From positions 1-23,463 of IMG/VR virus record IMGVR_UViG_3300027759_003332: DNA of 23,463 bases; one strand, written 5' to 3'. The position numbers and the translations under genes were made by a program. Every line of letters begins with the position of its first letter. The stretch's first letter is position 1. Below the pieces are notes generated by a model. That model was not told where the DNA came from. It worked only from the letters and a program-made list of their open reading frames with translations, and made no database searches. The stretch comes from a virus. This document shows, piece by piece, positions 1 through 22,107 of this stretch.

Positions 1-1
1 A

Positions 2-355
2 AACAAGTACCGACCAAATACCGACCAAGTAAAAAAAGTGTGGGAAAGGGTTAAAAAACTAAGAAAAGAAGGTAAATTACCCCCTGAGTCACATGATGAT
101 GATGAACCTTCAGCATTGGCATTTACACCATATGATGTTGAAGAGGAGGAAGAAAAAATTGTTGAGGCTCCTATAGTACAAAGAGAACCTTTAATTATTA
201 ATATTGAGAAAAGTTGGGAACCTGTATCTGATGATGAGTTATTTGAGAATCAAGAATATTACATAAAAAGTAATGGTACTGTTGGGGAATCGACAACTAC
301 CACAACAACTAATGATGGTGTTAAGAGATTAGTATATAAAAAGAATGATGAATGA
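2..355 (+). CDS. Unknown acidic phage protein, 5' end outside window
   Basis: The frame is open to the left edge with no ATG, so this is probably the C-terminal part of a longer gene. A GTG at 38 is the only internal start candidate and has no clear ribosome binding site. The visible protein has a basic segment (VWERVKKLRKEGKLPPES), then a strongly acidic stretch (HDDDEP, VEEEEEK), a Thr run (six consecutive) near the end and a basic C-terminus. No recognised domain. The stop overlaps the amidase start by 11 nt, so the two are translationally coupled and this gene belongs to the same late-type operon. A virion or packaging role is possible from position alone; no function is assigned. Confidence 0.6.
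   Translation, partial: NKYRPNTDQVKKVWERVKKLRKEGKLPPESHDDDEPSALAFTPYDVEEEEEKIVEAPIVQREPLIINIEKSWEPVSDDELFENQEYYIKSNGTVGESTTTTTTNDGVKRLVYKKNDE
8..29. repeat. Two tandem 11-bp units at the left edge
   Basis: TACCGACCAAA is followed immediately by TACCGACCAAG, two copies with one difference. The unit is not a multiple of three, so the copies are read in different frames of the partial gene that covers them. Only two copies are visible; more could lie left of the window. It could be a slippage product or chance. Confidence 0.5.
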
Positions 356-950
356 TGAAGATATCATAAAATTCGGAGACTTCAGTTATGAAGGGGAAGA
401 GGAAGATAAAGTTCAAATAATTTTATCTCATACCTCAAGATTCGCGGTGGATTATATAAATGGTCTAAAGCATCGGTACGGTAAAAAATATAACAAAATC
501 CCAAACTACATAATCACCCGTGACGGTAAAATTATAGAACTATTAGAACCAAAGAAATACTCCAAATATATTAAAGATGAGAATATATCTAAGAAGACAA
601 TTACTGTTTCTTTAGAAAATTTAGGTTGGTTAGAAAAAGAACCGTTAAAAAATAGATACATTAACTGGATTGGTAATATTTATAATGGAAAGGCTTTTGA
701 ACGTAAGTGGAGGGATTATTTTTTATGGCAACCTTACACCGAAGTTCAAGTTGATAGTACCATACTAATATGTAAAAAATTAATGGAAGATTTTAACATT
801 AGTAAAAAATGTGTGGGACATAACACTAAAGTAAATGGTGTGAATCAGTTTGAGGGTATTGTTACCAGAAGCAATTACACCACAGATGTTACGGATCTAA
901 GTCCGGCATTTGATTTTGATTATTTTAAAAAAAATATAGAAGATGAATAG
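345..950 (+). CDS. N-acetylmuramoyl-L-alanine amidase (endolysin)
   Basis: Amidase_2/PGRP-type zinc amidase that would cleave the bond between N-acetylmuramic acid and L-alanine in peptidoglycan, most likely the endolysin releasing progeny. Seen: the first zinc-ligand context ILSHTSR (His29), the core strand YIITRDGKIIELLEP with a Tyr near residue 55, and the C-terminal ligand region with GHN (His159) and TDLSPAFDF (Asp184), which matches the DPGPAFDW element of the family. At 201 residues it is a bare catalytic domain with no cell-wall binding domain. No signal peptide, so it needs a holin or another export route. Two consecutive ATGs (345, 348) are possible starts inside the end of the previous gene. 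The next gene overlaps its stop by 8 nt. Membrane/coiled-coil genes just downstream suit a lysis cassette. Confidence 0.85.
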   Translation: MMNDEDIIKFGDFSYEGEEEDKVQIILSHTSRFAVDYINGLKHRYGKKYNKIPNYIITRDGKIIELLEPKKYSKYIKDENISKKTITVSLENLGWLEKEPLKNRYINWIGNIYNGKAFERKWRDYFLWQPYTEVQVDSTILICKKLMEDFNISKKCVGHNTKVNGVNQFEGIVTRSNYTTDVTDLSPAFDFDYFKKNIEDE

Positions 951-1539
951 ACACGATGAAATAAAAATTTTAATAGAGGCATCTAAAAAATTATTAAATA
1001 AAAATTTAATTACTGAGGATATTAACCATATCAGAAAAAATCACGGGTTAATAGTGGAACAAGGGGAGGATATGCCAACTGAAGAACAACCTAAAGACTA
1101 TGAGACTGCGAATACTGACAATGAAGATAATAAAGAAGAAGAAGTTATAAAGTCAGATAAATCAAAGGGATATAGAATTTCTGGAGGTATTATTGTTATT
1201 CACGGAAAAGATAAATCTGACCTACAATTAACAACTGATGATAAAAAGGCATTCCAAGAGACCATGGACGATTTTGTTACAGAAGTTTCCGAGATTGTGG
1301 ATTTTAATAAACTAAATTTATATTCCAACAATGTTGAATGGTCAGGTAAAATTACCGAATTAGACGTTGAGTTCTTTTATTCAATTGGAGAAACGAATGG
1401 AATATATATTAATGGTACGATGACTAAGATCGACGATGACTACTTAGAATTTTTAAATAAGTTGAAACAATACTATGAGAAATTCAAATCTAAATGGTCT
1501 AAAGTTATTGCGGCAAGAAAGAAAACTCCCGAATCATGA
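943..1539 (+). CDS. Unknown acidic phage protein with an LITED...IVEQ motif
   Basis: A 198-residue protein with no domain I recognise. The N-terminal 40 residues are helical and end in LITEDINHIRKNHGLIVEQ (residues 22-40). Residues 41-75 form a low-complexity acidic linker rich in E, D, N and K, followed by a compact alternating sheet/helix region and a basic C-terminus. The IVEQ segment resembles the N-terminus of the 511-residue protein at 17155 and an internal segment of the protein at 3346. One reading is a targeting or cleaved propeptide before a globular domain; this is inference. It overlaps the amidase by 8 nt and the next gene by 4 nt (ATGA). Structural or scaffold protein is a guess from context only. 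Confidence 0.75.
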   Translation: MNRHDEIKILIEASKKLLNKNLITEDINHIRKNHGLIVEQGEDMPTEEQPKDYETANTDNEDNKEEEVIKSDKSKGYRISGGIIVIHGKDKSDLQLTTDDKKAFQETMDDFVTEVSEIVDFNKLNLYSNNVEWSGKITELDVEFFYSIGETNGIYINGTMTKIDDDYLEFLNKLKQYYEKFKSKWSKVIAARKKTPES

Positions 1540-1889
1540 AAGGATTTTTAAAATATAATTTTAAGTACATTTTAATATTTGTTGGGGTGGTATTTGTGTA
1601 TTTTTTATTAATGGATCTAATGACACCATCAAACGGTATGTCTAAAGAAGACGTAAAAAAAATTGAAAAAATTGACAAAGACATTAATTTAATTATTGAA
1701 AATCAAAAAAAATTAGACGAGTCAATTGAGAAATATAAAGAAAACATTAGAAAAATAGACTCAACGATATCTAATATTAATTTTAAGAAAGAAGTTGTTA
1801 ATAATTATTATGAGATTAAAGGTAAAGAAATTAATAATGCCGACGCTAAACAAATTGATAGTTTATTAAGACTAAGATATAAATTTTGA
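1536..1889 (+). CDS. Small membrane protein with coiled coil, candidate inner-membrane spanin
   Basis: A 117-residue protein with one hydrophobic segment near the N-terminus (about residues 10-28, YILIFVGVVFVYFLLMDLM) preceded by Lys, then a long charged helix with heptad-like spacing (about residues 37-83) and a polar tail. This N-in, C-out topology with a periplasmic coiled coil is that of Rz-type inner-membrane spanins, which help disrupt the outer membrane at lysis. Position two genes after the amidase, with the start overlapping the preceding stop (ATGA), supports a lysis role. It could instead be another membrane-anchored phage protein; there is no sequence signature beyond topology. 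Confidence 0.6.
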   Translation: MKGFLKYNFKYILIFVGVVFVYFLLMDLMTPSNGMSKEDVKKIEKIDKDINLIIENQKKLDESIEKYKENIRKIDSTISNINFKKEVVNNYYEIKGKEINNADAKQIDSLLRLRYKF

Positions 1890-1891
1890 TT

Positions 1892-2302
1892 ATGAAAAAA
1901 ATATTAATATTATTATTCTTTTTTGTTTCGTTGACCTCATTCGGTCAACTTAAAAAAATTGAAACAACTGAGATATGTTTACCATATAAAGTAGCCAAAC
2001 AAATTATGTTGGATCTTAATACGTTAGACTCAACTATGGAAATTCTTAAATTAACAAACTTAGAAGTTAAAGAGTTAAATAAGAAAGTAAGTGATCAACA
2101 AGGTATGATAGTTAATTTCGAAGATAAAATTAAAATGAACGATACTTTAATTAAGATGTCAAATGAAAAATTTAACATTGTTGATAAAATCAATAAAGAT
2201 TTAGTTATCGACAATAAAAAATTAAAGAGAAAGAATGTAATTATAGAGATAGTCTCAGGTATTTTAATTGGGGCATTAACATATGAAGTAATAACAAAAT
2301 AA
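1892..2302 (+). CDS. Exported coiled-coil protein with C-terminal membrane anchor, lysis candidate
   Basis: The start is taken as ATG 1892, two bases after the preceding stop; a TTG at 1886 is in frame but overlaps that stop. Seen: a classical signal peptide (MKKILILLFFFVSLTSFG, predicted cut before Gln, the usual flavobacterial style), a conserved-looking ICLPYKVAKQIMLDL segment, a long coiled coil, and a hydrophobic C-terminal helix (IVSGILIGALTYEVI). A protein exported at its N-terminus, periplasmic in the middle and anchored at its C-terminus could bridge envelope layers like a unimolecular spanin, but the lipobox Cys expected for an outer-membrane anchor is absent at the cleavage site. 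Proteins of this layout beside phage amidases in Bacteroidota phages are familiar, but their function is unproven. Confidence 0.65.
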   Translation: MKKILILLFFFVSLTSFGQLKKIETTEICLPYKVAKQIMLDLNTLDSTMEILKLTNLEVKELNKKVSDQQGMIVNFEDKIKMNDTLIKMSNEKFNIVDKINKDLVIDNKKLKRKNVIIEIVSGILIGALTYEVITK

Positions 2303-2547
2303 TGGCATTATCACAAACAGATAAAAAAGATATTGAAGTTTTAATCAGAAAAGAAATTAAAGATTTCTTAGGATCTACTACCGCCAAACAATTTGAGGAT
2401 AAACTAATTCAACAGGTCTCTAAAGATCTTAAACGAGGTAAACTAGAAGGTGATGTTAAAGATATTATTGTAAAATCATTCAGGGAATTTTTTACAATGA
2501 TGTTCCACCAAAGAAGTTTTTGGGAATCAAAATTTAGAAGTTCATAA
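2302..2547 (+). CDS. Small unknown phage protein
   Basis: An 81-residue, mostly helical, mixed-charge protein (begins MALSQTDKKDIEVLIRKEIK) with a hydrophobic/aromatic C-terminal helix (SFREFFTMMFHQRSFWESKF). No signal peptide or membrane segment. It is joined to both neighbours by 1-nt TAATG stop/start overlaps, a strong sign that it is translated. The aromatic tail could bind a partner or a membrane surface. It lies between the candidate lysis genes and the Cys-rich protein, so it may belong to either group. Confidence 0.7.
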   Translation: MALSQTDKKDIEVLIRKEIKDFLGSTTAKQFEDKLIQQVSKDLKRGKLEGDVKDIIVKSFREFFTMMFHQRSFWESKFRSS

Positions 2548-3323
2548 TGGATGAGATAACTGCAAAAATTAGAGATATGATATCTAGTCAAACTTCGGGT
2601 AATCCTGAGGCTAGAACAAACGCATTAAAAGGACTAAGAGACGTTAAAGAAAATGATGAGGGTGAAAAAAGAAACTCACCTCAAGATTACTTAAAGGATC
2701 CAAATGGGTTAAAGTTAGTTTTTGAATTGGCAAAACAAAAAAAGACTAATAAGTTAACTATAAGAAAGGAAATTAAAAAATTATTAAAAAACCCTGAAGA
2801 AATTAACGACTTCTTGAATTCAATACTTTCATTCGTCAAATCTAAAAAAAGTAACGATAAGGAAGAAACAAAAGAGATGACAGGATCAGGTAGTGCCGGT
2901 GGATATCCCACAAAATTATTTGGTGGTGAAATGAAAGAAAACGTTTGTAAAATTTGCGGTATGAAAAACTGCAAATGTCAGGACAAAAAACATGGTAATA
3001 CACCAAGAAGAGAAACAAAAGAAGCCACAGGATCGGCATCATCAGGACAATACTCAGGACCCTCGATATGGGCAAAATCAACCAACAAAAAAGATTGGGG
3101 ACCAAAACGTAAAACACAAATACCTGGAGGTAAGTTTGTTCAAGTTAAGAAAAAATGTAAAAAGTTTCCTTACTGTAATCAGGGGGATATTAACGCACTT
3201 AGGATCTTTGAAAACGAGACTCTTTCGAAAGTAATAAACGATTTATCAGATAAGTACCAAATTCACGAAGACTTCATAAGAGAAATAATCTTCAATGAAA
3301 TGTCAAAAAGGAATTTAATGTGA
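2547..3323 (+). CDS. Unknown phage protein with Cys cluster and duplicated ETKE-TGS segment
   Basis: A 258-residue basic protein. Residues 1-110 are helical and Lys-rich. A Cys cluster follows (Cys134, 137, 142, 144: CKICGMKNCKC), probably a metal site. Two copies of a Gly/Ser-rich segment flank it: ETKEMTGSGSAGGY and ETKEATGSASSGQY. A later basic segment carries KKKCKKFPYCNQGDINA, and the C-terminus is a helical domain (residues about 220-258). I have seen similar TGS-SxG and KFPYCNQGD segments in uncharacterised large-phage proteins, but know no function. It starts in a TAATG overlap with the previous gene. A TATTTAT box follows its stop and precedes the next gene, so transcription may be reinforced there. 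Confidence 0.75.
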   Translation: MDEITAKIRDMISSQTSGNPEARTNALKGLRDVKENDEGEKRNSPQDYLKDPNGLKLVFELAKQKKTNKLTIRKEIKKLLKNPEEINDFLNSILSFVKSKKSNDKEETKEMTGSGSAGGYPTKLFGGEMKENVCKICGMKNCKCQDKKHGNTPRRETKEATGSASSGQYSGPSIWAKSTNKKDWGPKRKTQIPGGKFVQVKKKCKKFPYCNQGDINALRIFENETLSKVINDLSDKYQIHEDFIREIIFNEMSKRNLM

Positions 3324-3330
3324 TATTTAT
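3324..3330 (+). promoter_or_regulatory. TATTTAT box before the gene at 3346
   Basis: TATTTAT, followed by TAAATAAAAA, lies 15 nt before the ATG at 3346. The same heptamer precedes several other unit-leading genes here, so it may be part of a phage promoter. The AT-rich background makes a single copy weak evidence. Confidence 0.35.
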
Positions 3331-3345
3331 TAAATAAAAATAACT

Positions 3346-4809
3346 ATGAACAATTATTTAAAATACAGAGCACAAAGACTTATTAACGAGACCTTAGAAC
3401 AAAAGGCTAACGAAGTTATGGATAAATTAAAATTTAACAAACCTGGTAGTTCTTTTGATTATGTTGAAGAAGGAGAAATGTGTGAATCATGTGGTGGAGA
3501 AATGACAGAAGGTGAATGTATGGAATGTGGTGGGGAAATGAGAGAAAATGACGAAATGGATTTTGAAACACCTATGAGAGATAATATGAGAGATCATAAA
3601 GGTAAATTTAAAACCCCTATGAGAGATACCGTTAGATCTCGTAAAGTACCATTTAAAACTTCTATGAGAGATGATATGTATATGAGATCTCGTAAAGACA
3701 GATATAAAGATGTTGACGATGACATGAACGAAAGTCTTTACCCTGAAATGATGGAAGATGATAGTGAGTCAGAAAATAGATATAACCGAACAAAAGATGA
3801 TGAAATTGTTCATCATTGGATGGATAATGGAAGACACACTTTAAAAGGAAAACTTGATAGAGGTAATAAATTCGTTGCCCACTCATATGAGACAGATTCA
3901 AAATATGAAGATGTAAAAAATTACTATCAGAATCGATTTGATAAAGTGAAAGGAACGGGACATGAATACAAAAGAAATGATGATAGTTTTTTTCTTCCTG
4001 GATTTGGTGATATAATAACCGATAATTCTTATGAAAGTGAATTGGATGAAAAATTTTACGGAAACCAAGCCAGATTGGATAAAAATAAAAATGGAAGATT
4101 AGATTCACAGGACTTCAAGATGTTAAGAAAAGAAAGTGTATTCTATGAATTAACAACTGGGGTAAATGGTAAAAGAGAAAAACTTTTATTTACTGAAGGT
4201 CAATTTGAAGAAATAATCGAAAATATTGTTTTAAAAGAAGAAAGTAAATTTACTAAAGGTAAAACCCCAGCCGGTTATGCGGAATATGAAAGATCTATTA
4301 AAAAATCAAAACAAGAAGGTGACGATTATATGAAGGATGTGTCCAAAAAAATGAAAGATTATTTAAAAGACGGATCTAAAGGGAAATATGAAACAAACCC
4401 TAAACGTTTCCCAAGAGGTAATGGACAGTTGGCTAAAATGGATAAGAAGGCATATGAAATTGATGATGAAGGAACTGATTTTAATTATGAAGTTGCTGGT
4501 CAGATGATTCCTGATTACGATGGTAAACCACCTAAAAAAGAAACTATTGAAAAACAAATAAAAGGAAGTTCTAGTAATGGTAATAGTCAAAAATATGGTA
4601 ACGCTGAAGAGACAGAAGTTAACGATAAATTTGCTAAATATTTTGAAGACGATCAATTGGCAAAATGGAAAGATGAATCATACAAAAGAGTACCTTCACC
4701 AGTTTATAATGAAACCCCATTAAAAAATAAAAAAGGTGGTAAAAATAAATTAAAAGAAGAGTTTGAGAAAATGAAATCGTTAATTTCATACGATAGAAAG
4801 ACTCAATAA
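3346..4809 (+). CDS. Large acidic probable virion/assembly protein with Cys knuckles, tandem repeats and EF-hand-like loop
   Basis: A 487-residue, highly charged, low-hydrophobicity protein. In order: a helical N-terminus; a doubled CxxCGGEM knuckle (Cys46, 49, 58, 61), probably zinc-binding; three 15-residue repeats led by FETPMRD, FKTPMRD and FKTSMRD (residues 73-117); an acidic region; a more globular stretch (about 150-225) with HHWMDNGRHTLKGKLDRGN; an EF-hand-like loop DKNKNGRLDSQDF (residues 245-257); a helix motif LFTEGQFEEIIENIVLKEE (281-299); and a long Lys/Glu-rich disordered tail. EF-hand-like loops before DFKMLR are seen in T4-like phage head-core proteins, so scaffold, core or decoration roles fit, but this is inference. 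It is preceded by a TATTTAT box and followed by a perfect terminator hairpin. Confidence 0.75.
   Translation: MNNYLKYRAQRLINETLEQKANEVMDKLKFNKPGSSFDYVEEGEMCESCGGEMTEGECMECGGEMRENDEMDFETPMRDNMRDHKGKFKTPMRDTVRSRKVPFKTSMRDDMYMRSRKDRYKDVDDDMNESLYPEMMEDDSESENRYNRTKDDEIVHHWMDNGRHTLKGKLDRGNKFVAHSYETDSKYEDVKNYYQNRFDKVKGTGHEYKRNDDSFFLPGFGDIITDNSYESELDEKFYGNQARLDKNKNGRLDSQDFKMLRKESVFYELTTGVNGKREKLLFTEGQFEEIIENIVLKEESKFTKGKTPAGYAEYERSIKKSKQEGDDYMKDVSKKMKDYLKDGSKGKYETNPKRFPRGNGQLAKMDKKAYEIDDEGTDFNYEVAGQMIPDYDGKPPKKETIEKQIKGSSSNGNSQKYGNAEETEVNDKFAKYFEDDQLAKWKDESYKRVPSPVYNETPLKNKKGGKNKLKEEFEKMKSLISYDRKTQ
3562..3696 (+). repeat. Three 45-bp in-frame tandem repeats
   Basis: Each unit encodes 15 residues starting Phe-Glu/Lys-Thr-Pro/Ser-Met-Arg-Asp. 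Copies start at 3562, 3607 and 3652 and diverge in the second half, with the third the least regular. The units sit in the acidic N-terminal third of the 487-residue protein. Copy number could vary between related phages. Confidence 0.75.
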
Positions 4810-4836
4810 TTTACAATTACATAATTGAATCTTATC

Positions 4837-4872
4837 ATTGTCCATAGGTAATAATCTATGGACAATTTTTTT
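4837..4872 (+). terminator. Perfect hairpin plus T-run overlapping the next start codon
   Basis: ATTGTCCATAG (4837-4847), 8-nt loop, then CTATGGACAAT (4856-4866): an 11-bp perfect stem followed by seven T (4866-4872). This is the form of an intrinsic terminator for the gene ending at 4809. Unusually, the ATG of the downstream gene (4858-4860) is inside the 3' arm, so in a read-through transcript the start codon would be base-paired. Confidence 0.75.
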
Positions 4873-5325
4873 AACTACATATCGAAACAATTAAAACAGG
4901 AGGATATTGAGGTTTGGTTTAACATCAACAATATCATTCCTGAGAAGATGGAATTGTATTACGATTTCTCAGTATCTATACATAAATTAATTTTAGAAAC
5001 TTATCTTGGTGATGACGATGGTTTTAATGAAACCAAAGTATTAATGAGTGAAGAAGATAAAGTAAACCATTTCGATTGGTGTTGGGACAAAACTATTGAT
5101 AGTTTTAATTTAGAAAATATTGTCTTTAATAAGAGGGGAGAACACTACGAGTACTTCCAATCATTCTTTTCTGAAATATATTATAACCAATCTGATAATA
5201 AAATAAAAAATTCAATCAGTGTTTTCTTTAGAGATGTCTTTGATTTGGATAAACCATTCACTCAGTCAGATTTGGATATGATCCTTAATATCTACCGTAG
5301 TTTAGATAAAAATTTGGTCATATAG
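4858..5325 (+). CDS. Unknown phage protein starting inside a hairpin
   Basis: A 155-residue acidic protein, rich in aromatic residues, with no recognised domain. It begins MDNFFNYISKQLKQEDIEVWF, and a DWCWD motif lies near residue 80. No membrane segment or signal peptide. The ATG lies within the 3' arm of a perfect 11-bp hairpin; the next in-frame ATG is 30 codons downstream, inside what looks like the folded domain, so the first ATG is preferred. Translation may therefore depend on a transcript that starts within the hairpin or on melting of the stem. It is the first gene of a run of six small plus-strand genes. General resemblance to small conserved proteins of large Bacteroidota phages is noted, without a function. 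Confidence 0.7.
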   Translation: MDNFFNYISKQLKQEDIEVWFNINNIIPEKMELYYDFSVSIHKLILETYLGDDDGFNETKVLMSEEDKVNHFDWCWDKTIDSFNLENIVFNKRGEHYEYFQSFFSEIYYNQSDNKIKNSISVFFRDVFDLDKPFTQSDLDMILNIYRSLDKNLVI

Positions 5326-5388
5326 TATTTACTAAGGTAAGTTAGTGAGGTATTATTATATTACATAAACAATAAAATAAATTAAAAA

Positions 5389-5562
5389 ATGGAAACGTTA
5401 GAACAAATTAAAACACTATTTGAACAATTAAGTGCTGACACAACTAAGTTTTTTGCTGGTAATAAAAGTGCGGGAACAAGAGCGAGAAAAACATCTCAAG
5501 AGTTAAAGGCTTTATTACAAACATTAAGAGGTGAAATCTTAGACGCTAAGAAAAATGACTAA
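5389..5562 (+). CDS. Histone H1-like (Hc1-type) small basic protein
   Basis: A 57-residue ORF: METLEQIKTLFEQLSADTTK, then FFAGNKSAGTRARKTSQELK, then ALLQTLRGEILDAKKND. The core GNKSAGTRARKTSQELKALL matches the short histone H1-like Hc1 family common in Bacteroidota chromosomes (typical core: GNKAAGTRARKxLxELxKL), which binds DNA through Lys/Arg residues. Here it would act on phage or host DNA: compaction, packaging or interference with host nucleoid, which cannot be told apart from sequence. The start is the ATG after an A-rich leader (AAATTAAAAA) without Shine-Dalgarno; the stop overlaps the next gene by 8 nt. Its C-terminus is shorter and less Lys-rich than chlamydial Hc1. Confidence 0.75.
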   Translation: METLEQIKTLFEQLSADTTKFFAGNKSAGTRARKTSQELKALLQTLRGEILDAKKND

Positions 5563-5749
5563 TATTGATACGATATATCTTTTTATATTCATTTTCTCAG
5601 TTCTGTCAGTTTTCAGAATTGTTTTAAAATTTATATTTTCCCTATTACAGGCATCCCCCGAAAGATTGGTGATGAGTAATAGGGAAATATTATTCCAAGG
5701 TATTACATTGTCTTATGTTATAACTTACACAATACAAAATTTATTATGA
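5555..5749 (+). CDS. Small two-helix membrane protein
   Basis: 64 residues with two hydrophobic segments: a long one at about residues 7-31 (IYLFIFIFSVLSVFRIVLKFIFSLL) and a second at about 46-63 (ILFQGITLSYVITYTI), joined by a short polar loop (QASPERLVMSNRE). No signal peptidase site or enzyme motif. It overlaps the histone-like gene by 8 nt and the next gene by 4 nt (ATGA). Size and topology would fit a holin-like or superinfection/membrane-modifying protein, but it is far from the amidase, so this remains open. Confidence 0.7.
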   Translation: MTNIDTIYLFIFIFSVLSVFRIVLKFIFSLLQASPERLVMSNREILFQGITLSYVITYTIQNLL

Positions 5750-6174
5750 GTTTTTTTACAGAATTTAATACGTTATCACCATACTTGCAATCCGTAAGAA
5801 AGTTGAAAACATATCTTTCGTTTGATATTCATTTTCCTAATACATGGAAAATCCCTAAGAAGTTTGTCGATGAGGAAACACTATTAGAAAATGAATCTGG
5901 AGAATCAGGCAAAAGATTCTTTTCGTTTGTTAGTACCTTTAATGAGGAAGAGGTTGAGAAGATTTTTAACAACCTTAGAAATATTATTAAATATAATAAA
6001 GAAAGAGAAGAAAAGGATAAACTATTCCAATCCAAAGTTAATGAACTAAAATCTATTTTTGAAAAACAAAATTTAGATAATTTACAGGCATTAAAATTTG
6101 AAATTTCCGAAAATCAAAAAATTGAATTAGAAGATGGCGAAGAAAATACAGACCCAGTTAGAAACCCAAATTGA
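5746..6174 (+). CDS. Unknown soluble phage protein
   Basis: A 142-residue protein. The first half has alternating hydrophobic/polar segments (LRKLKTYLSFDIHFPNTWKIP follows an SPYLQSV start region), the middle is acidic, and the second half is a charged helical region (NEEEVEKIFNNLRNIIKYNKE through KSIFEKQNLDNLQALKFEI). I associate similar small proteins with large marine and flavobacterial phages but know no role. Start and stop are both in overlaps: ATGA with the preceding gene, and a 41-nt overlap with the next one. Confidence 0.7.
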   Translation: MSFFTEFNTLSPYLQSVRKLKTYLSFDIHFPNTWKIPKKFVDEETLLENESGESGKRFFSFVSTFNEEEVEKIFNNLRNIIKYNKEREEKDKLFQSKVNELKSIFEKQNLDNLQALKFEISENQKIELEDGEENTDPVRNPN

Positions 6175-6340
6175 GTGGTTGAATAATGAATTGGAGAAAG
6201 ATAGGCTAGAAGTTGAGAGGAATAAATCCAAGTTCATTGACCAAATCAAACAATTAAAAAAAGAAGACATTGTTAAAGATAAAGTTAATGTTGAAAAAAT
6301 GACGATATGGAAGAGAATAAAGAAAGTATTATTGGGGTGA
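6134..6340 (+). CDS. Small coiled-coil protein with C-terminal Trp/Lys tail
   Basis: 68 residues, almost entirely a charged amphipathic coiled coil (about residues 4-50), ending in MTIWKRIKKVLLG, a short basic amphipathic helix with a Trp. The tail resembles that of the next gene (SWFKRLMKGSLK). No catalytic motif. It overlaps the previous gene by 41 nt, which is long but typical of this dense operon; the next gene starts inside it (ATG 6307) or in its stop (TGATG at 6338-6342). The tail could bind a membrane or a shared partner protein; this is inference. Confidence 0.65.
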   Translation: MAKKIQTQLETQIEWLNNELEKDRLEVERNKSKFIDQIKQLKKEDIVKDKVNVEKMTIWKRIKKVLLG

Positions 6341-6618
6341 TGGAAAAATTGGCAATGATTACAGATGCCGTCCAATCCTTATTCCCCGATGGTAAATCGG
6401 TAATTGCATTTGAATTACCTGAAGTTAGTTTTAAAGAAGTACAAAAAAACTTTAGAGAAATTGATAGAAATTATAAAAAATTTAAAATTGATATTTCAGG
6501 TGTTGAGGTAATATTCGTTTTAGAAAATTCATATGAAGAACAAACACCAATCGAAGAACCTATTGCGGTTAAAAAAGAAAGTTGGTTTAAAAGATTAATG
6601 AAGGGTAGTTTAAAGTAA
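6307..6618 (+). CDS. Unknown small phage protein with C-terminal WFKRL tail
   Basis: 103 residues from ATG 6307, or 92 residues from ATG 6340, which forms a TGATG coupling with the previous stop and is about equally likely as the true start. Core: helix (KLAMITDAVQSLFPDGKS), then beta-like strands (VIAFELPEV, FKIDISGVEVIFVLEN), an acidic/Pro linker and a basic Trp tail (ESWFKRLMKGSLK). Compact alpha/beta fold of unknown function. The linker plus amphipathic tail suggests a peptide docked onto another protein. It is the last gene before a convergent minus-strand gene, with a hairpin over its stop codon. Confidence 0.65.
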   Translation: MEENKESIIGVMEKLAMITDAVQSLFPDGKSVIAFELPEVSFKEVQKNFREIDRNYKKFKIDISGVEVIFVLENSYEEQTPIEEPIAVKKESWFKRLMKGSLK

Positions 6619-6627
6619 CTACCTTTT
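6601..6627. terminator. Bidirectional terminator-like hairpin between convergent genes
   Basis: GGTAGTT (6604-6610), loop TAAAGT, then AACTACC (6617-6623), extendable by G-U and A-U pairs to AAGGGTAGTT/AACTACCTTT, with a T-run at 6624-6627. It spans the stop codons of the plus-strand gene (6616-6618) and minus-strand gene (6619-6621), so it could end transcription from the plus side; A bases on the left side make it weaker in the other direction. Confidence 0.5.
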
Positions 6628-7254
6628 GTATGTTGTATAGGTCCTATACAACTTTGATTTGGGGATCCCTCCTTTTTCTAAAATATCATAAATGTATTTC
6701 TTTTGTGACTTACTTGAGTCAGGGACTAATATACAATCCATCCTATTTTTATCCTGTAGGAATTTACCTAACACGTCAAGGAACCTACCTGATTCATTAA
6801 CGGACTTCAAAGAAAAACAATTAAACTTATCGTCATTTTGAACTACAATTTTATTGTTAATTTTAGAAACTAATTTCAAACCATCTTTAGGTAGATATTT
6901 TTTAATAAATTGATCAAATGAGATTTTAGATGAGGTTTGAATATCGTAAATTAATTCTTCCATTAATAATTCAGAAACAGAAAGTATTGTATAATCACTA
7001 TTATCCAACTCCACTTTTATTTGACGACCTAATTCATCCTTTATAAAGTATGAGTCAAAATTCTTAGAATGTTTTTCAAGTAGACCGATTTCAAATGAAC
7101 AGGATTTTCCGTTTTCGAATAAAGTATTAAATCTAATCTCTTTATTACCTATTATTTTATCGTCGTAGAACTTTTTAGCGTTCTTGTAAGTCTTAAACGA
7201 CTTTATTATTTTTTTTCTTTCTTTATTTTTGAATAGTACGATTAAATAGTTCAT
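6619..7254 (-). CDS. Unknown phage protein
   Basis: 211 residues from ATG 7254; a GTG at 7266 would add four residues but is less likely. Lys-rich N-terminus (MNYLIVLFKNKERKKIIKSF), a central mixed alpha/beta region, and a C-terminal segment DCILVPDSSKSQKKYIYDILEKGG that looks like a small alpha/beta domain. No recognised motif. It is divergent from the dnaJ gene with about 45 bp between the two starts, so promoters for both must be in that AT-rich spacer (containing TTAATTAA). The 3' end is 1 nt from the stop of the convergent gene and carries hairpin sequences. Confidence 0.7.
   Translation of the reverse strand: MNYLIVLFKNKERKKIIKSFKTYKNAKKFYDDKIIGNKEIRFNTLFENGKSCSFEIGLLEKHSKNFDSYFIKDELGRQIKVELDNSDYTILSVSELLMEELIYDIQTSSKISFDQFIKKYLPKDGLKLVSKINNKIVVQNDDKFNCFSLKSVNESGRFLDVLGKFLQDKNRMDCILVPDSSKSQKKYIYDILEKGGIPKSKLYRTYTTYKR
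6632..6652. repeat. 21-bp near-perfect palindrome in a gene 3' end
   Basis: GTTGTATAGG, one T, then CCTATACAAC. It lies in the last codons of the minus-strand gene (coding LYRTYTTYKR). A 10-bp arm palindrome with one central base suits either a protein-binding dyad or, with a few bases opened as loop, a second hairpin in the convergent 3' region. Confidence 0.5.
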
Positions 7255-7299
7255 AATATTGATCACTCTTTAATTAAGTATATTAATTTTTTTTTATAA

Positions 7300-8205
7300 A
7301 TGAATAATGAAAACTATTATGAGGTTTTAGGTGTTGATGAAAAGGCAACACAAGAAGATATTAAAAAGGCGTACAGAAACCTAGCCAAAGAAAATCACCC
7401 CGATAAAGGTGGAGATGGTGAGATGTTTAAAAAGATCTCAGCTGCTTATGATACGATTGGAGACGAAAATAAACGAAAACAATATGATAACCAAAAGAAG
7501 AACCCGTTTGGTGGAAATTTTGCCGATATGTTTAATTCGTTCAATCAACAACAAAGACAAGAAAACCATACTAGCGTAATTACGGTAAACATAGGTGTGT
7601 TGGATTCATATTTAAGTAGGAACAAACAAATTACATATAAGAGAAAAACTAGTTGTAATATTTGTAATGGATCAGGAGGGGAAAAGAAGATATGTACCAC
7701 CTGTAATGGTGTTGGTAGTGTAATGAAACAAGTGGGTACGGGTATGTTCGTACAAGTTGTTAATATGAGTTGTAATACTTGTTCTGGTACTGGTAAAATT
7801 ACCATAAACGCTTGTTATGCGTGTAATGGGTTGGAGACTAAAGATGAGATGAAAATAATAGATCTTAAAATACCTCATGGAATTGAGGATGGTCAGTTTG
7901 TAAGAATGTCGGGTGTTGGGGATTTTAGAAATGGTAGATTCGGGGATTTAGTAATCAGGATTAATTTGGTAGAAGAAAACGGTTTCATTAAGAATGGTCC
8001 GCATTTAATATATAACTCTTATTTGAACTATGAGGATCTTACGAAGGAGGATATAAACATACCTCATCCTGATGGGGAGTTAAATATTAAATTACCTAAA
8101 TTATTTGATTCCTCAAAACCTTTGAGAGTTAGAGGTAAAGGATTCAAAAATGGACAAATTGGGGATCTATTAATTAATCAGATTGTTAGGTTTGATAGAC
8201 CTTAA
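7300..8205 (+). CDS. dnaJ: DnaJ (Hsp40) co-chaperone
   Basis: A complete type I Hsp40 of 301 residues. J domain (about 4-65) with YYEVLGV, KKAYRNLAKENHPDKGG and the HPD triad at 33-35, which stimulates DnaK ATPase. A short G/F-type linker (PFGGNFADMFNSF) follows. Zinc-binding domain with Cys pairs at 119/122, 132/135, 158/161 and 172/175; the first three are CxxCxGxG, and the fourth is CYACNGLE, lacking the final Gly. The C-terminal substrate-binding region (about 185-300) has IPHGIEDGQFVRMSGVGDF and LRVRGKGF. It is shorter than bacterial DnaJ (about 375) through loss of linker and C-terminal sequence. No dnaK is visible, so it probably recruits host DnaK for replication or virion folding. 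The leader is T-rich with no Shine-Dalgarno. Confidence 0.93.
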   Translation: MNNENYYEVLGVDEKATQEDIKKAYRNLAKENHPDKGGDGEMFKKISAAYDTIGDENKRKQYDNQKKNPFGGNFADMFNSFNQQQRQENHTSVITVNIGVLDSYLSRNKQITYKRKTSCNICNGSGGEKKICTTCNGVGSVMKQVGTGMFVQVVNMSCNTCSGTGKITINACYACNGLETKDEMKIIDLKIPHGIEDGQFVRMSGVGDFRNGRFGDLVIRINLVEENGFIKNGPHLIYNSYLNYEDLTKEDINIPHPDGELNIKLPKLFDSSKPLRVRGKGFKNGQIGDLLINQIVRFDRP

Positions 8206-8375
8206 AATAAAGACAAGATATCTTTATATAAGGAAACCGCCCCATATATTGATAGTGCAAACATAATACCACCGGTAATAAAAACAAATTTTTGTGTTTT
8301 CCCTGTAGTTTGATTACATTTTCTACAACCTTTAACTTGGGTTGCTTCAGTTTTGACTTCTTTAAATTCTTCCAT
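8202..8375 (-). CDS. Small CxxC membrane protein
   Basis: 57 residues from ATG 8375; an upstream in-frame start at 8411 would add an unlikely 12-residue leader across the putative promoter box. Polar N-terminus, a KGCRKCNQ motif (CxxC), then one hydrophobic segment (FVFITGGIMFALSIYGAVSLY) close to the C-terminus. The CxxC could bind metal or form a disulfide. Similar tiny Cys-pair/membrane-helix proteins are familiar from Bacteroidota phages; role unknown. The stop overlaps the dnaJ stop by 4 nt on the opposite strand. A TATTTAT box lies 12 nt upstream of its start. Confidence 0.65.
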   Translation of the reverse strand: MEEFKEVKTEATQVKGCRKCNQTTGKTQKFVFITGGIMFALSIYGAVSLYKDILSLF

Positions 8376-8387
8376 AGTATTTTTTAT

Positions 8388-8394
8388 ATAAATA
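8388..8394 (-). promoter_or_regulatory. TATTTAT box before the minus-strand gene at 8375
   Basis: Read on the minus strand, ATTATTTATATAAAA lies upstream of the ATG at 8375, with 12 nt between the heptamer and the start. One of the recurring boxes seen on both strands. Confidence 0.35.
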
Positions 8395-8474
8395 ATTATA
8401 CGACCAAACAATTTATAAGTGAAGAATTTTTAATGTTCATTTACTTTTTAACGCACTTTTATTATAATTATTAA

Positions 8475-8481
8475 TATTTAT
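8475..8481 (+). promoter_or_regulatory. TATTTAT box in the leader of the RHH/LAGLIDADG module
   Basis: TATTTATAATATATGGGAA: the box is only 5 nt before the ATG at 8487. The leader is nearly identical to that of the second LAGLIDADG gene at 22108. If this is a -10-like element, transcripts would be almost leaderless. Confidence 0.4.
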
Positions 8482-8486
8482 AATAT

Positions 8487-8651
8487 ATGGGAAAAATAGG
8501 AAGACCTATTAAAGAAGATAAAGATAAGAAAGTTAAATATGGGATTAGTATTGACCGATATCTTTTTGATAAAATGAAAAACGAGGGGGTTAGTATTTCC
8601 AAGTTTATTCAAAAATTAGTAAAGGAACATTATGAAAAGAAAAAAATTTAA
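8487..8651 (+). CDS. Ribbon-helix-helix DNA-binding protein
   Basis: A 54-residue protein starting MGKIGRPIKEDKDKKVKY. The segment VKYGISIDRYLFDKMKNEGV followed by SISKFIQKLVKEHYEKKK fits the ribbon-helix-helix (CopG/Arc) fold: a short strand (KYGISI), helix A (DRYLFDKMKNE), a turn and helix B (ISKFIQKLVKEHY). Such proteins dimerise and place the strand in the major groove as repressors. It sits 5 nt behind a TATTTAT box, and its 3' end overlaps the LAGLIDADG gene by 20 nt, so the two are co-expressed. The natural inference is that it regulates the endonuclease or its own promoter; an accessory role in target recognition is an alternative. Confidence 0.75.
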   Translation: MGKIGRPIKEDKDKKVKYGISIDRYLFDKMKNEGVSISKFIQKLVKEHYEKKKI

Positions 8652-9315
8652 TGAAGATTATTTTGAGGCAATAGATACACCTGAAAAGGCATATTTTCTT
8701 GGTTTTATTTTTGCGGACGGATGTTTAATTGATGATCCAAAAAAATATAGGTATAAATTAAACATTAAGATTCACAATAAAGATGAGGATATCCTTGAAA
8801 AGTTCATATCACTATTAGATAGTGAGGTTAAAATATGGAAAAGTAAGAATAGAGATATTTCTGAAATTGGATTTTCTAGTAAAAAAATAATAAATGATTT
8901 AAAAAATATTGGACTACATCAAAATAAAACATACACAATAGATTATCCCAAAATTGATGAAAAACTTGAAAGACATTTTTTAAGAGGATATTTTGATGGT
9001 GATGGGTGTATTAGAATTAATGAAGATAAAAGAGATAAAACTAAACGAGGAGACTTGAGAATTGTTGGGGGTTCAGTTAAGTTTATAGAAACTTTAAATG
9101 AAAGAATGGGTAAACTATTCGGAGTTAATGTTAATAAACTTTATGGCCCAAAGGATAAAAATTATAAATTTATTGGGTGGGCAGGTATGTCGGACATTGA
9201 ACGAATTTACGATGGATTTTATTCTGATACGGACTTGTTTTTAAATAGAAAAAAGATTATCTTTGATGAGGTTATTGATTTAATCGGAGATAAAAATAAA
9301 TACAGAAAAAAATAA
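8632..9315 (+). CDS. LAGLIDADG homing endonuclease
   Basis: 227 residues with two LAGLIDADG motifs: LGFIFADG (residues 23-30) and LRGYFDGDG (117-125), each supplying a catalytic Asp at the interface of the pseudo-dimer. Single-chain, freestanding homing endonucleases of this size make a site-specific double-strand break and are copied into the cut genome by repair. There is no sign of intron or intein context: flanking genes are intact. It is located between a ribbon-helix-helix gene (20-nt overlap) and an adenine methyltransferase (start 5 nt downstream). Lysine-rich and AT-rich like the surrounding genes. Function as an endonuclease is secure by family; the target site is unknown. Confidence 0.9.
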   Translation: MKRKKFNEDYFEAIDTPEKAYFLGFIFADGCLIDDPKKYRYKLNIKIHNKDEDILEKFISLLDSEVKIWKSKNRDISEIGFSSKKIINDLKNIGLHQNKTYTIDYPKIDEKLERHFLRGYFDGDGCIRINEDKRDKTKRGDLRIVGGSVKFIETLNERMGKLFGVNVNKLYGPKDKNYKFIGWAGMSDIERIYDGFYSDTDLFLNRKKIIFDEVIDLIGDKNKYRKK

Positions 9316-9320
9316 TAATT

Positions 9321-10160
9321 TTGATTTCATACATTGGCGGTAAGAGTAGAATAGGTAAATGGATTGTTCCATTCTACGATAAAAATATGGAGACATATGT
9401 TGAAACATTCGGAGGAATGTTTTGGTGTTTCTTTAATATGGATTTAAAACAATTCCCCAATCTTAAGAAAGTTGTTTACAACGACTTCAACCCACTCAAC
9501 TACAATTTATTCCAATGTATACAGGACCCTGTAAGACTATTGGAGTCAATAAATTCAATCCCTTGTCAACAATTTGGTGAGGTACCAACCCCACCATTAT
9601 ATAAAGAACAATTTATCAGGTTCCAGGCTGAAATATTTAATGAAGGTTTCAGCGTAGAACCTGGTGATTATGAAGTTGCTGCTAAATACGTATATGTGCT
9701 AACACAAGTATTTAGTGGTTCTAAACCTGAAACAAGTTCGTTTATTGATTTGAAAGGGAAGTATAAGTCAAAATACTTAACGTTTAGAGATAAACTTTCA
9801 AAACCGGATTGGATAGACCATTTCTTAAAGATAACTCACGTTGAGAATATGGATTTTGCTGAGGTTATTGAAAAGTATGATTCACCTAACACTTACTTCT
9901 ATGTGGATCCTCCTTATTGGAAAACTGAGAACTATTATTCTAACCACGATTTTGATAGAGAGGATCATGAAAGACTTTCAAAATCATTAATAAATATGGA
10001 AGGTAAGTTCAGTTTATCTTATTATGATTTTGAACTTTTACATGAATGGTTTCCCGAAGACCAATATAAGTGGGATAAAAAAGAATTTGCTAAAGCGGCA
10101 GCGGCAAAGAAAGGAATAAAACAAAATATGGGTGAGGAATTATTAATAATGAATTACTAA
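9321..10160 (+). CDS. Dam-type (D12 class) N6-adenine DNA methyltransferase
   Basis: 279 residues. Motifs in order: ISYIGGKSRIGKWI with the SAM-binding GGK near the N-terminus (residues 2-15), YVETFGGMFW (motif I, FxG), VVYNDFNPLNYNLF, and YFYVDPPYW with catalytic DPPY at 196-199; the C-terminus ends GEELLIMNY as in Dam-like enzymes. It transfers methyl from SAM to adenine N6 in DNA, to protect or mark phage DNA. There is no ATG: the frame opens with TTG 9321 directly before ISYIGG, while upstream codons run back to a stop at 9297. The normal start may have been lost or replaced when the endonuclease module settled just upstream. Target sequence cannot be read from the protein. Confidence 0.88.
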   Translation: MISYIGGKSRIGKWIVPFYDKNMETYVETFGGMFWCFFNMDLKQFPNLKKVVYNDFNPLNYNLFQCIQDPVRLLESINSIPCQQFGEVPTPPLYKEQFIRFQAEIFNEGFSVEPGDYEVAAKYVYVLTQVFSGSKPETSSFIDLKGKYKSKYLTFRDKLSKPDWIDHFLKITHVENMDFAEVIEKYDSPNTYFYVDPPYWKTENYYSNHDFDREDHERLSKSLINMEGKFSLSYYDFELLHEWFPEDQYKWDKKEFAKAAAAKKGIKQNMGEELLIMNY

Positions 10161-10181
10161 TTATTTTTTACACTATTGGAA

Positions 10182-10188
10182 TATTTAT
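10182..10188 (+). promoter_or_regulatory. TATTTAT box before the gene at 10203
   Basis: AATATTTATAATAAAA lies 14 nt (heptamer end to ATG) before the 629-residue gene, in a 42-bp gap after the methyltransferase. Part of the recurring box set. Confidence 0.4.
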
Positions 10189-10202
10189 AATAAAACTTTA
10201 CT

Positions 10203-12092
10203 ATGGAATTACTTAAGGTATTATCAACTGTCATTAAAGAAAACACAAACGGTAAACGTCTTGTGAGTGAAGCAATGGCTGAAAAGGTTGTTAAATTTTT
10301 AATTGACAAATACAAACCTACAACTAAAGATACGGAAGAACAAATAACTGCGGTTATTAACGCATTTGACAAATATAAAGCTGGGTTACCACAAGATCAG
10401 AGAGATATTACTAAATTAAGTTATGGTATTGTTAAAAACATTGTTTTATCCAAAGAGATTAAAAAACAAGAAAAAGGGATCTTCAAAAAATATATGGAGG
10501 CGAACAAAGGAGCCGACAAAAATGCGGTTAAATTAGCTTTACGTAAATTCTATGAGTTATTCCCTATTTTACCTACAAATCAAAGAGATGTTCTTAAAAT
10601 GCCTTATTTGAAACTGGTTGAGTTTTTACAGAGTAAGTTTAATACTATGTTAACTTCAGCGGCACTTAAGAAATTTAAGGAAGATGGTGCTAATGTAACA
10701 CCCGAACAATTAATATATTATATATCAACATACTTAGATCTATACCATAGATTACCGGCTAATTTACCACCATTATTGTTTATGAGTTTTGATGAACTTG
10801 AGCATACGTTAGATGGTATGGGGGATTTAACAGATGATATTAAAGATAAGACCGATGATTATGGGGATATTGAAACAATATATGACGATGATAACTTATT
10901 AATCTTCAAACCAAGTGGTAAAGAACAATGTATTAAATTGGCTAACGGAAGAAGTTGGTGTATATCTAAATCAGGTGGTGGTAATATGTATTACAACTAT
11001 CGTTTGGGTCATAACTTAACAATTTATTATGTTATTGATAAAGATAAACCATTTAGTGACCTTAACTACGCAGTTGTTATATTAGTTGAACCTTACGGTG
11101 GAAAACGAATTGCGGATGGACAAAATATGTCTGGTGGATATTCAGGACATAAGAAAGAAGCTTGGGCTACAATTGTAGGTAAAGTTCCAAAATTACAAGG
11201 TAAAGAACATTTGTTTGTTGCGGATCCATTGAGTACAGAAGAGCAAAGAGAACTGAATAATTTTAAAAATACTACCATCAATAAAGATGCAATTAAAGAA
11301 CTTGGTAGTGAACAAGCGGCTGAAATGTGGCTTGAGATTTCAAGTCCTGATTTAACATATAGAGGTAATGGTGATGAAATTTATAAAAACTTTACTGAGA
11401 ATCTTAAGAATAAATACTTAGGTTTGGGTATGGACTTGACTGCGGAAATGATCAATAACTCTGAACCTAGTGTGTTGAAATATTATGCGGCAAGAAAACT
11501 TCAAGGACTGATGTCAAAAAGTTTAGGTCAGTTAAATGATACTGATATTGCTTTCATCAATAGTCCTATAATGAGAGAGAATAAGAAAAAATTAAGAGAA
11601 AAATTCTCAGGTCAATTAGGTGGTGTTAGTAGTAGTGGTTATGTTGGACTTGAGTATCCAAAAGATGATAACTCTAAGTATGTTGCATTATTTGGATTTG
11701 AAGATTTCTTTGAGCATATTCCATCAAATACAACTATGATCCAAATGGAAAATACAAGTAAAACTCCAATTGCCTTGGATATACCGGCAAGTATTGGTAA
11801 ATTAACCGAATTAAAAACATTGATTATTGATAATATGGTTAAATCAATCCCTGAAAGTATTGGAAATTGTACCAAATTGAAATTTATAAACTTACCTAAT
11901 AACCCACAGTTAGAAAGTATTCCTGAGGCATTCGGAGATTTATATTGTTTGAACTTTTTCTCAACTGAGAATTCAAACCCTAATATGAGAATCCCCGCAA
12001 AATTAGAAGAATACATGACAGAAGACGAAGGGTTTTGGTTTATTAATTTCCCCCCTGAAATGAAAAAACATTGTGGACCTATAAGATCTTAA
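10203..12092 (+). CDS. Large phage protein with WC-type domain and C-terminal leucine-rich repeats
   Basis: 629 residues. Residues 1-210 are helical and repetitive in style (two ILP/IL...QRDVxKMPY-like segments: LPQDQRDITKLSYGIV and LPTNQRDVLKMPYLKLV). A central domain (about 220-350) holds IYDDDNLLIFKPSGKEQCIKL, then GRSWCISKSGGGNMYYNYR with W252-C253, and TIYYVIDKDKPFSDLNYAVVI. This WC...IDKxKP pattern recurs in uncharacterised proteins of T4-like and other large phages. The C-terminus (about 520-590) has three LRR-like units (LDIPASIGKLTELKTLI, SIPESIGNCTKLKFINL, SIPEAFGDLYCLNFF). LRRs mediate protein binding, so a host- or virion-interaction role is plausible. Function unproven. Confidence 0.75.
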   Translation: MELLKVLSTVIKENTNGKRLVSEAMAEKVVKFLIDKYKPTTKDTEEQITAVINAFDKYKAGLPQDQRDITKLSYGIVKNIVLSKEIKKQEKGIFKKYMEANKGADKNAVKLALRKFYELFPILPTNQRDVLKMPYLKLVEFLQSKFNTMLTSAALKKFKEDGANVTPEQLIYYISTYLDLYHRLPANLPPLLFMSFDELEHTLDGMGDLTDDIKDKTDDYGDIETIYDDDNLLIFKPSGKEQCIKLANGRSWCISKSGGGNMYYNYRLGHNLTIYYVIDKDKPFSDLNYAVVILVEPYGGKRIADGQNMSGGYSGHKKEAWATIVGKVPKLQGKEHLFVADPLSTEEQRELNNFKNTTINKDAIKELGSEQAAEMWLEISSPDLTYRGNGDEIYKNFTENLKNKYLGLGMDLTAEMINNSEPSVLKYYAARKLQGLMSKSLGQLNDTDIAFINSPIMRENKKKLREKFSGQLGGVSSSGYVGLEYPKDDNSKYVALFGFEDFFEHIPSNTTMIQMENTSKTPIALDIPASIGKLTELKTLIIDNMVKSIPESIGNCTKLKFINLPNNPQLESIPEAFGDLYCLNFFSTENSNPNMRIPAKLEEYMTEDEGFWFINFPPEMKKHCGPIRS

Positions 12093-12094
12093 TA

Positions 12095-12388
12095 ATGAAC
12101 GTAGATATAGAAATTTATATTAGTCAGTTAATACTATTCTTTGAAAAAAACCCAGGTGATTTTATGGGTCTTGTTGGAGAAGTGCAAAAAGAAGAGTTCT
12201 TTCAAAAATTGAAAGAAAAATCTATTGATAACCATAAAAAGGGTGAAGACTTTATTTTAACTAAACAACAGATCATTGATGTTGTTGTTGAACTTAAAGC
12301 TCCTGAGTTGAATCAGAAGTTAAGTTACACAAATAAGGTTGAAGGGTTCATACAAAAGACTAAGTTTGGTGATATCATATTAAATTAA
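12095..12388 (+). CDS. Small conserved-looking phage protein
   Basis: 97 residues from ATG 12095, two bases after the previous stop; a TTG at 12071 in the same frame would overlap the upstream gene and is less likely. Begins MNVDIEIYISQLILFFEKNP, includes FFQKLKEKSIDNHKKGEDFILTKQQIIDVVV, and ends TKFGDIILN. Helical, no Cys, no membrane segment. The helix-LTKQQIIDVVVEL element could be a small DNA- or protein-binding helix, but no family is certain. Its stop overlaps the end of the convergent GIY-YIG gene by 4 nt. Confidence 0.7.
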   Translation: MNVDIEIYISQLILFFEKNPGDFMGLVGEVQKEEFFQKLKEKSIDNHKKGEDFILTKQQIIDVVVELKAPELNQKLSYTNKVEGFIQKTKFGDIILN

Positions 12389-13164
12389 TTAATATAAATA
12401 ACTTTACCATTTTTTAAATAACGATAAATTGAAGTATGTGAAATACCCATTTCTTCCATACATTCTTTTATTGATGTATATATTTTAGATGATTTTACGT
12501 CCATTACTTTTTTTGCGTTAGGGCTTTTACCACCTTTATTATCCCTCATTAAAGCTGATTGTCTTATTTTCTCAATAACTTCTGGATTTTTAGTTGGGTT
12601 ATTAGTTAGATTTCTTAACCTTAAATCCTCTCTTGGTTTATTTTTTCTTGGATGGTTTTCAGTCCCATTTACCCATAAAAGCTTATGTGATTCTGATACT
12701 TTTTTTTGAGTTTCAAGGAGTCTCATTGGGTTATTTTTTTTCATTCTAATACTTTGTTTTATTTTATTATATTGTAATTTCATTGGATTGTTATCTGAAC
12801 TCATCCGATTTTTTTGTGTTGATTTAACTAATTCTGAAACGACAAGACCTTTACTACCCTCACCACCATCTGTAAAATTAACTAAAGTACCCTCATTTAA
12901 ATTTTTTCTACCATACATTTTTATGTATTTAATTTCTGATAATATGGATTCATCCCAAGTTAAAAAATCCTCAATAATTTCAACTGACCAAGAAATTTTA
13001 TTTGTTATTCTAACCCAATATTTGTTATGATTGTGAGTAGTATACGCACGACGATATGTGTTGGTATCACATTTACCGCTAGCTTTTTTATTAACGGTTC
13101 CTCTACCAATATAAAAAACTTCATTATTATCTAATTTCCTATGTAAATAAATGTAACATCTCAT
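12385..13164 (-). CDS. GIY-YIG homing endonuclease with NUMOD-type tail
   Basis: 259 residues. An N-terminal GIY-YIG nuclease: CYIYLHRKLDNNEVFYIGRGT carries the GIY-like (YIYLH) and YIG (FYIGRG) motifs, followed by a helix with acidic WDESILSEIKYIKMYGR that supplies the catalytic Glu. The middle contains repeated NNPM/NNP elements (DNNPMKL, KNNPMRL, TNNPTKN) typical of NUMOD3 DNA-binding motifs, and the C-terminus KVMDVKSSKIYTSIKECMEE plus ISHTSIYRYLKNG fits NUMOD1 with a helix-turn-helix. Family role: mobile site-specific nuclease. It lies opposite to its neighbours between intact genes. Only an AT-rich spacer with a near-palindromic CATATATATAATATATATG is found upstream of its start. Confidence 0.88.
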   Translation of the reverse strand: MRCYIYLHRKLDNNEVFYIGRGTVNKKASGKCDTNTYRRAYTTHNHNKYWVRITNKISWSVEIIEDFLTWDESILSEIKYIKMYGRKNLNEGTLVNFTDGGEGSKGLVVSELVKSTQKNRMSSDNNPMKLQYNKIKQSIRMKKNNPMRLLETQKKVSESHKLLWVNGTENHPRKNKPREDLRLRNLTNNPTKNPEVIEKIRQSALMRDNKGGKSPNAKKVMDVKSSKIYTSIKECMEEMGISHTSIYRYLKNGKVIYIN

Positions 13165-14042: not shown

Positions 14043-14067
14043 GTGGGGTGAACAACCCCACTTTTTT
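14043..14067 (+). terminator. Intrinsic terminator after the DUF932 gene
   Basis: GTGGGGT (14043-14049), loop GAACA, ACCCCAC (14055-14061), then six T (14062-14067). GC-rich stem in an AT-rich genome, 8 nt after the stop: a strong rho-independent terminator. Confidence 0.9.
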
Positions 14068-16868: not shown

Positions 16869-16873
16869 ACCTT

Positions 16874-16880
16874 ATAAATA
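16874..16880 (-). promoter_or_regulatory. TATTTAT box before the minus-strand gene at 16868
   Basis: On the minus strand, TTATATTTATAAGGTATG: 5 nt separate the heptamer from the ATG. It directly follows the T-run of the upstream hairpin, so a terminator and promoter-like element are fused. Confidence 0.4.
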
Positions 16881-16881
16881 T

Positions 16882-16918
16882 AAAAAAAGGTGGAAAATAT
16901 TTCCCACCTCAACTTTTT
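16882..16918 (-). terminator. Hairpin after the MGCGC gene
   Basis: On the minus strand, GGTGGGAAA / TTTTCCACC (16908-16889) with one G-U pair and a 2-nt centre, followed by seven T (16888-16882). It would end the 46-residue gene. A T-run on the other side (16914-16918) makes it partly bidirectional. Confidence 0.7.
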
Positions 16919-22062: not shown

Positions 22063-22096
22063 AAAAAAGAAATGTGACTTTCTACACACTAACATA

Positions 22097-22103: not shown

Positions 22104-22107
22104 ATAT

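Follow-up and report, generated by a model that had tools for sequence, protein, structure and literature searches.

A conserved terminator-shaped hairpin that encloses a start codon and overlaps a putative promoter in uncultured phages

The hairpin located at positions 4837-4872 of the window, i.e. of the whole 23,463-nt stretch of viral DNA analyzed here, probably represents an intrinsic terminator fused to a start-occluding hairpin of the T4 gene e type, which is bypassed by an embedded promoter. This reading is based on the sequence of the window and on a comparison of roughly 97 different versions of the locus found on contigs in IMG/VR, in which the hairpin is kept with the start codon of the downstream gene inside it.

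The hairpin and the enclosed start codon

All parts of the locus itself lie on the + strand. The upstream gene (3346-4809, stop codon 4807-4809) encodes a protein of 487 aa with relatives in 15 IMG/VR loci and no match in Pfam or PHROG. The downstream gene (4858-5325) encodes a protein of 155 aa, for which structure prediction (pLDDT 84.5) indicates an all-helical fold; a fold search with the predicted structure returned an uncharacterised phage protein as the sole match, which is uninformative on function. Between the two genes, ATTGTCCATAG (4837-4847) and CTATGGACAAT (4856-4866), separated by GTAATAAT, form a perfect 11-bp stem. Upon folding, the helix extends to 13 pairs including one G-U pair, with a left arm at 4837-4849, a 4-nt loop at 4850-4853 and a right arm at 4854-4866 (dG −16.5 kcal/mol, z −4.9), and none of 200 shuffled sequences was as stable, with only four G-C pairs present in the stem. 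The right arm contains the ATG (4858-4860) and runs into the U-tract TTTTTTT (4866-4872), which is made up of the end of codon 3 (AAT) and the Phe codons TTT TTT. Since the first T of this run pairs with A4837, six T remain unpaired. Stem, enclosed ATG and 7-T tail are thus located exactly where the original prediction had placed them. As in intrinsic terminators, the stable hairpin is directly followed by 6-7 T, and this arrangement is kept in the strong-stem versions of the locus.

The ATG at 4858 is the earliest possible start of the 155-aa frame because of an in-frame TAA at 4852-4854; it is the first start past this TAA and is kept in all relatives, and homology between the proteins begins at residue 1. 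A true start located 3' of the stem, which would have spoken against the original prediction, is not borne out, since residues are conserved from codon 2 onwards and the stem moves together with the ATG. Among ten terminator-like sites identified in positions 1-12000 of the window (4.4 in shuffled versions of the same region), the hairpin has the highest number of pairs (13, tied with a site at 6598). We also surveyed ORF starts, 377 in total, from the window and 12 stretches of six large relatives, and found no other start within a stem of equal strength that contains G+C and precedes a T-run. The only exceptions were two short ORFs (59 and 67 aa), which are probably spurious and start in a terminator-like loop.

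Conservation, covariation and the coding U-tract

Protein searches of IMG/VR identified 305 loci on contigs of up to 318 kb, 98 of which were distinct over −70 to +60, with protein identities among the relatives down to about 50-60%. Searches of GenBank phages and of the genome collection revealed no relative, and the family is therefore known here from metagenomic viral contigs only; the locus is carried by a large group of uncultured phages, which are probably jumbo phages. Nearly all versions share a common layout, in which the upstream gene ends in CAATAA or CAGTAA and is followed after about 15-36 nt by the hairpin with the next ATG in its right arm. The spacer between stop codon and stem mostly comprises 24-28 nt (median 25 nt), and both sequence and length (3-9 nt) of the loop differ among relatives.

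The right arm consists of the ATG and codons 2 and 3 and is thus coding, and the left arm, with which it covaries, is non-coding. Codon 2 is GAC, GAT, GAG, GAA or ACA in the relatives and is mostly tracked by the left arm (GTCC/GGAC, ATCC/GGAT, CTCC/GGAG, TTTC/GGAA), so that all four pairs, C-G, A-T, G-C and T-A, are observed between the third base of codon 2 and its left-arm partner. This pair is of Watson-Crick type in 46 of 52 distinct arm versions, whereas 2000 permutations gave 18.9 on average and never more than 30; likewise, two inner stem positions pair in 47 and 36 versions (31.6 and 17.3 after permutation). Further inside, CATAG/CTATG is replaced by CATAAG/CTTATG, CATATA/TATATG or CATAAATG/CGTTTATG, and an extra AAT codon in proteins that begin with MENNFF is paired with an extra ATT in the left arm. 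On a protein tree built without the codons concerned, the covarying pair needs 11 changes. Only few independent changes fall on well-supported branches, and a formal independent-contrast test yielded one to two pairs on starred branches and hence had low power; therefore, our case relies on all pair types and the matched indels jointly rather than on a single p-value. Pairing is thus maintained by compensatory changes across the approximately 97 versions, and the interpretation originally given to the hairpin is supported by sequence comparison on both points that could have refuted it, i.e. the position of the start and the conservation of the stem. The covariation by itself would fit an RNA hairpin and a DNA palindrome alike.

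The U-tract is also constrained. Of the Phe codons 4 and 5 (alignment columns 5 and 6), which form the T-run, the first is TTC in none of 95 rows and the second in a single one of 85, whereas TTC accounts for 15-42% at each of 13 further Phe columns that are conserved in the 155-aa gene. AAC is similarly rare (3%) at Asn 3 inside the stem, whereas Asn 6 and Tyr 7, located just 3' of the T-run, vary freely (AAC 52%, TAC 54%). Because these two codons often end in C, a general avoidance of C close to the start does not explain the pattern. This bias indicates that the U-tract is selected as nucleotides, as expected for an intrinsic terminator. Across the relatives, we found stem, enclosed start codon, U-tract and promoter-like boxes to be conserved together and selected at the nucleotide level.

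The embedded promoter and the accessibility of the AUG

Between the stop codon and the stem, promoter boxes alone are conserved. A −35-like box TTTACA (4810-4815) is located directly 3' of the stop codon and is followed after 17 nt by a −10-like box TATCAT (4833-4838), the last two bases of which are part of the left arm. TTTACA, TTTACT, TTCACA or TATACA is found in 90 of 96 versions at the first position, and TATAAT, TATATT, TATTAT or TATCAT likewise in 90 of 96 at the second. At least nine of 12 positions match TTGACA/TATAAT in 91 of the 96 versions, compared to about 11% of shuffled sequences, and the boxes are separated by 16 (79 versions) or 17 nt (15 versions) of variable sequence. Over the 96 versions, the −10 score peaks exactly at −12 to −7 relative to the A of the left-arm CATAG, from which we derive C-A(+1) as the predicted transcription start, i.e. 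A4844, 5 nt from the −10 hexamer. The original prediction had postulated a promoter that begins after the left arm. A conserved sigma70-like sequence (TTTACA-16/17-TATAAT) is indeed present; its predicted start, however, lies within the left arm and past its outer seven bases, not past the whole arm.

A similar element, TTTACT-17-TATTAT (5328-5356), precedes the Hc1-like gene at 5389-5562. The leaders of this gene carry a TTTAC/TTGAC box (TT[TG]AC) in 87 of 92 relatives (14% in shuffles), although their full two-box score hardly exceeds that of shuffles; the recurring box supports the −35 reading at the hairpin. An AATAAAC motif also precedes the small Hc1-like histone gene, together with the TTTAC/TTGAC box, in about 90 versions (5328-5389 in the window). 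Genome-wide use of the pattern TTTACW-N16/17-TATNAT was rejected, since six contigs of 215-318 kb contained 6-11 hits each compared to 5-11 in the reversed control; as it is not enriched over whole contigs, the pattern would define at most a small class of promoters. The sequence CAATAATTTAC was likewise rejected as a repeated signal, and a Bacteroidota-type TAnnTTTG box, seen by eye in one sub-clade only (e.g. L120, L124) and implying a start at or before the left arm, was not adopted. In each of six large relatives (G001-G006; L351, L352, L355-L357) we detected one sigma70-family protein, encoded about 6-10 kb upstream of the locus on the same strand and comprising regions 1.2, 2 and 4; both of those that were read have a length of 266 aa.

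The position of the transcription start determines the predicted accessibility of the AUG. The probability of an unpaired AUG is 0.001 for RNAs that start at or before 4842, 0.004 for a start at 4843 and 0.38 for a start at 4844, and the median over 85 strong-stem versions increases from 0.001 to 0.36 with the RNA of the embedded promoter. The AUG reaches only about 38% because an RNA starting at A4844 can still form four pairs (AUAG/CUAU). Folding of the readthrough RNA during transcription or under translation may differ from these predictions. In a clade of 11 rows (L021, L024, L038, L058, L060, L063, L068, L069, L074, L141, L174) the outer stem is degraded (median dG −6.9 vs −15.6) and the T-run is broken in ten of them, while the promoter is perfect in most rows (exception L074) and the inner CATAG/CTATG helix is retained, giving a predicted median probability of an unpaired AUG in the readthrough RNA of 0.003. 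This pattern is suggestive of a loss of the termination part as a unit, apart from the start-codon helix; CATAG may, however, also have been retained as the initiation site.

A putative border between two transcription units

From these results we propose that the hairpin serves as a compact border between two transcription units; that it terminates transcription and occludes translation, precisely where the RNA starts and which sigma factor is used are what we infer here. A polymerase coming from the 487-aa gene would transcribe the full hairpin and the U-tract, and most transcripts would end at 4867-4872. In RNA that reads through, the AUG would be buried in the 13-pair helix. The 155-aa gene would be expressed from the sigma70-type promoter between stop codon and stem, and initiation at A4844 in the left arm would generate a leader of about 14 nt without the seven outer left-arm bases, leaving the AUG largely free. 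The median stop-to-stem spacing of 25 nt is near the distance, about 27 nt, past which ribosomes no longer suppress the terminator tR2 in E. coli (PMC4824070). Flavobacterium, a plausible candidate for the kind of host, is devoid of Shine-Dalgarno sites, and its initiation is tuned by mRNA structure at the start (PMC6847099). More tentatively, and with less than an even chance in our estimation, the roughly 60 bp could act as a three-in-one element, conserved throughout these phages, of partly protein-coding terminator, start-codon lock and promoter. The element would prevent synthesis of a phage protein from readthrough RNA, and the protein would be switched on only if the promoter is read by one particular sigma factor, perhaps the sigma70-family protein that the phage itself encodes 6-10 kb upstream.

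Four other explanations have to be weighed against the fused element. That the hairpin simply terminates transcription of the upstream gene, overlapping the start due to genome compactness and occluding the AUG as a functionless by-product, is rather unlikely in our view, although this would account for the protection of the U-tract at synonymous sites and the T-run after the stem, and the window harbors other intrinsic terminators between genes (e.g. 14043-14061, 16887-16910). Such a terminator could be placed 5' of the ATG, as at 14043, yet the overlap is kept in nearly all versions, the position of the stem follows that of the ATG, and RNA from the predicted promoter start would evade the stem; furthermore, the weak-stem clade retains the inner helix at the AUG despite lacking U-tract and outer stem. 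We give considerably less weight to a hairpin that only occludes translation as in T4 gene e, with the T-run as mere Phe codons and no termination. Its geometry would match that of e, soc, 49 and I-TevI of T4 (PMC3014915), but TTC is almost never used for the two Phe residues while the neighboring codons vary freely, which argues for a nucleotide-level need for the T-run.

It is even less probable that the gene has no promoter of its own, i.e. that the TTTACA/TATAAT boxes have another role and the 155-aa protein is made from readthrough RNA only, once the hairpin has been melted or processed. This possibility would fit the lack of genome-wide enrichment of the pattern and the fact that TATTTATA is the more frequent upstream motif of these phages; however, the boxes occur at a fixed spacing of 16-17 nt around variable sequence and at the correct distance to the CA start, are perfect even in most weak-stem versions, and their TTTAC/TTGAC part recurs before the next gene. 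Least probable of all appears a DNA palindrome that functions as operator for a repressor overlapping the −10/start region. The inverted repeat is perfect and surrounds the predicted start, where operators usually lie, and covariation would preserve such a palindrome too, but the distance of the half-sites changes by single bases (loop 3-9 nt), their sequence differs between clades and an operator does not need the constrained adjacent T-run.

Compared to known systems, the element most closely resembles T4 e, soc, 49 and I-TevI, the starts of which are hidden in long transcripts but accessible in RNA made from internal promoters (PMC3014915). As in this group, the start codon of the long transcript is predicted to lie in a helix, which is conserved. 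In the T4 group, a promoter in or next to the 5' arm gives RNA without this arm; the candidate counterpart here are the conserved promoter-like boxes with their predicted start in the arm. In contrast to the T4 group, the hairpin is also terminator-shaped with a coding U-tract, no Shine-Dalgarno site is involved, and phages and genes are unrelated. The T4-type late promoter TATAAATA is absent, the boxes being TTTACA and TATAAT-like (TTTACA-16-TATAAT), and we therefore consider the proposed mode of action gene e-like without classing the element among those of T4 late genes. With intrinsic terminators it shares the perfect stem, the U-tract and the location 15-36 nt past a stop codon; unlike in usual terminators, 3' arm and U-tract are at once the opening codons of the gene that follows, and the stem is poor in G-C pairs. 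As in attenuators and expression platforms of riboswitches, one hairpin could act on both transcription and translation, but a conserved leader or alternative antiterminator is absent; the spacer of 16-17 nt is variable and the locus gave no Rfam hit at E ≤ 1. As far as the sequence tells, the hairpin could be either regulated, i.e. a "switch", or a fixed insulator. A short search limited to open papers revealed no precedent, which is weak evidence of novelty. If our reading is correct, the locus would represent a naturally tuned design with a single hairpin that works at two levels and a local promoter that escapes it, maintained over a wide divergence, down to about 50-60% protein identity, by visible compensatory changes in a non-coding arm and the codons opposite. 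It would also make testable how a terminator can reside in the first codons of a gene without harm to the protein, and would point to a possible site of timing control in jumbo phages for which neither cultures nor genetics are available.

Several further features were observed in these genomes. The motif TATTTAT(A) is strongly enriched close upstream of starts, usually 4-20 nt before the ATG (39 of 96 leaders in the window and L339-L350, compared to 9.9 expected; in the window e.g. 8470-8486, 10180-10202, 16869-16885 and 22090-22107), and is probably the main promoter −10 or initiation signal of these phages. Divergent gene pairs in L342 (approximately 6297-7347) and L344 (approximately 311-2551) share a ATAAATACTTTGGTTTGTAGTATTTAT-like inverted repeat between them, which perhaps functions as a two-way promoter. 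In addition, the window harbors a phage-borne DnaJ-like gene (7300-8205) with J, zinc-finger and C-terminal domains, and three homing-endonuclease-like genes within its 23 kb, two of them of the LAGLIDADG type (8632-9315, 12385-13164 and 22108-22968).
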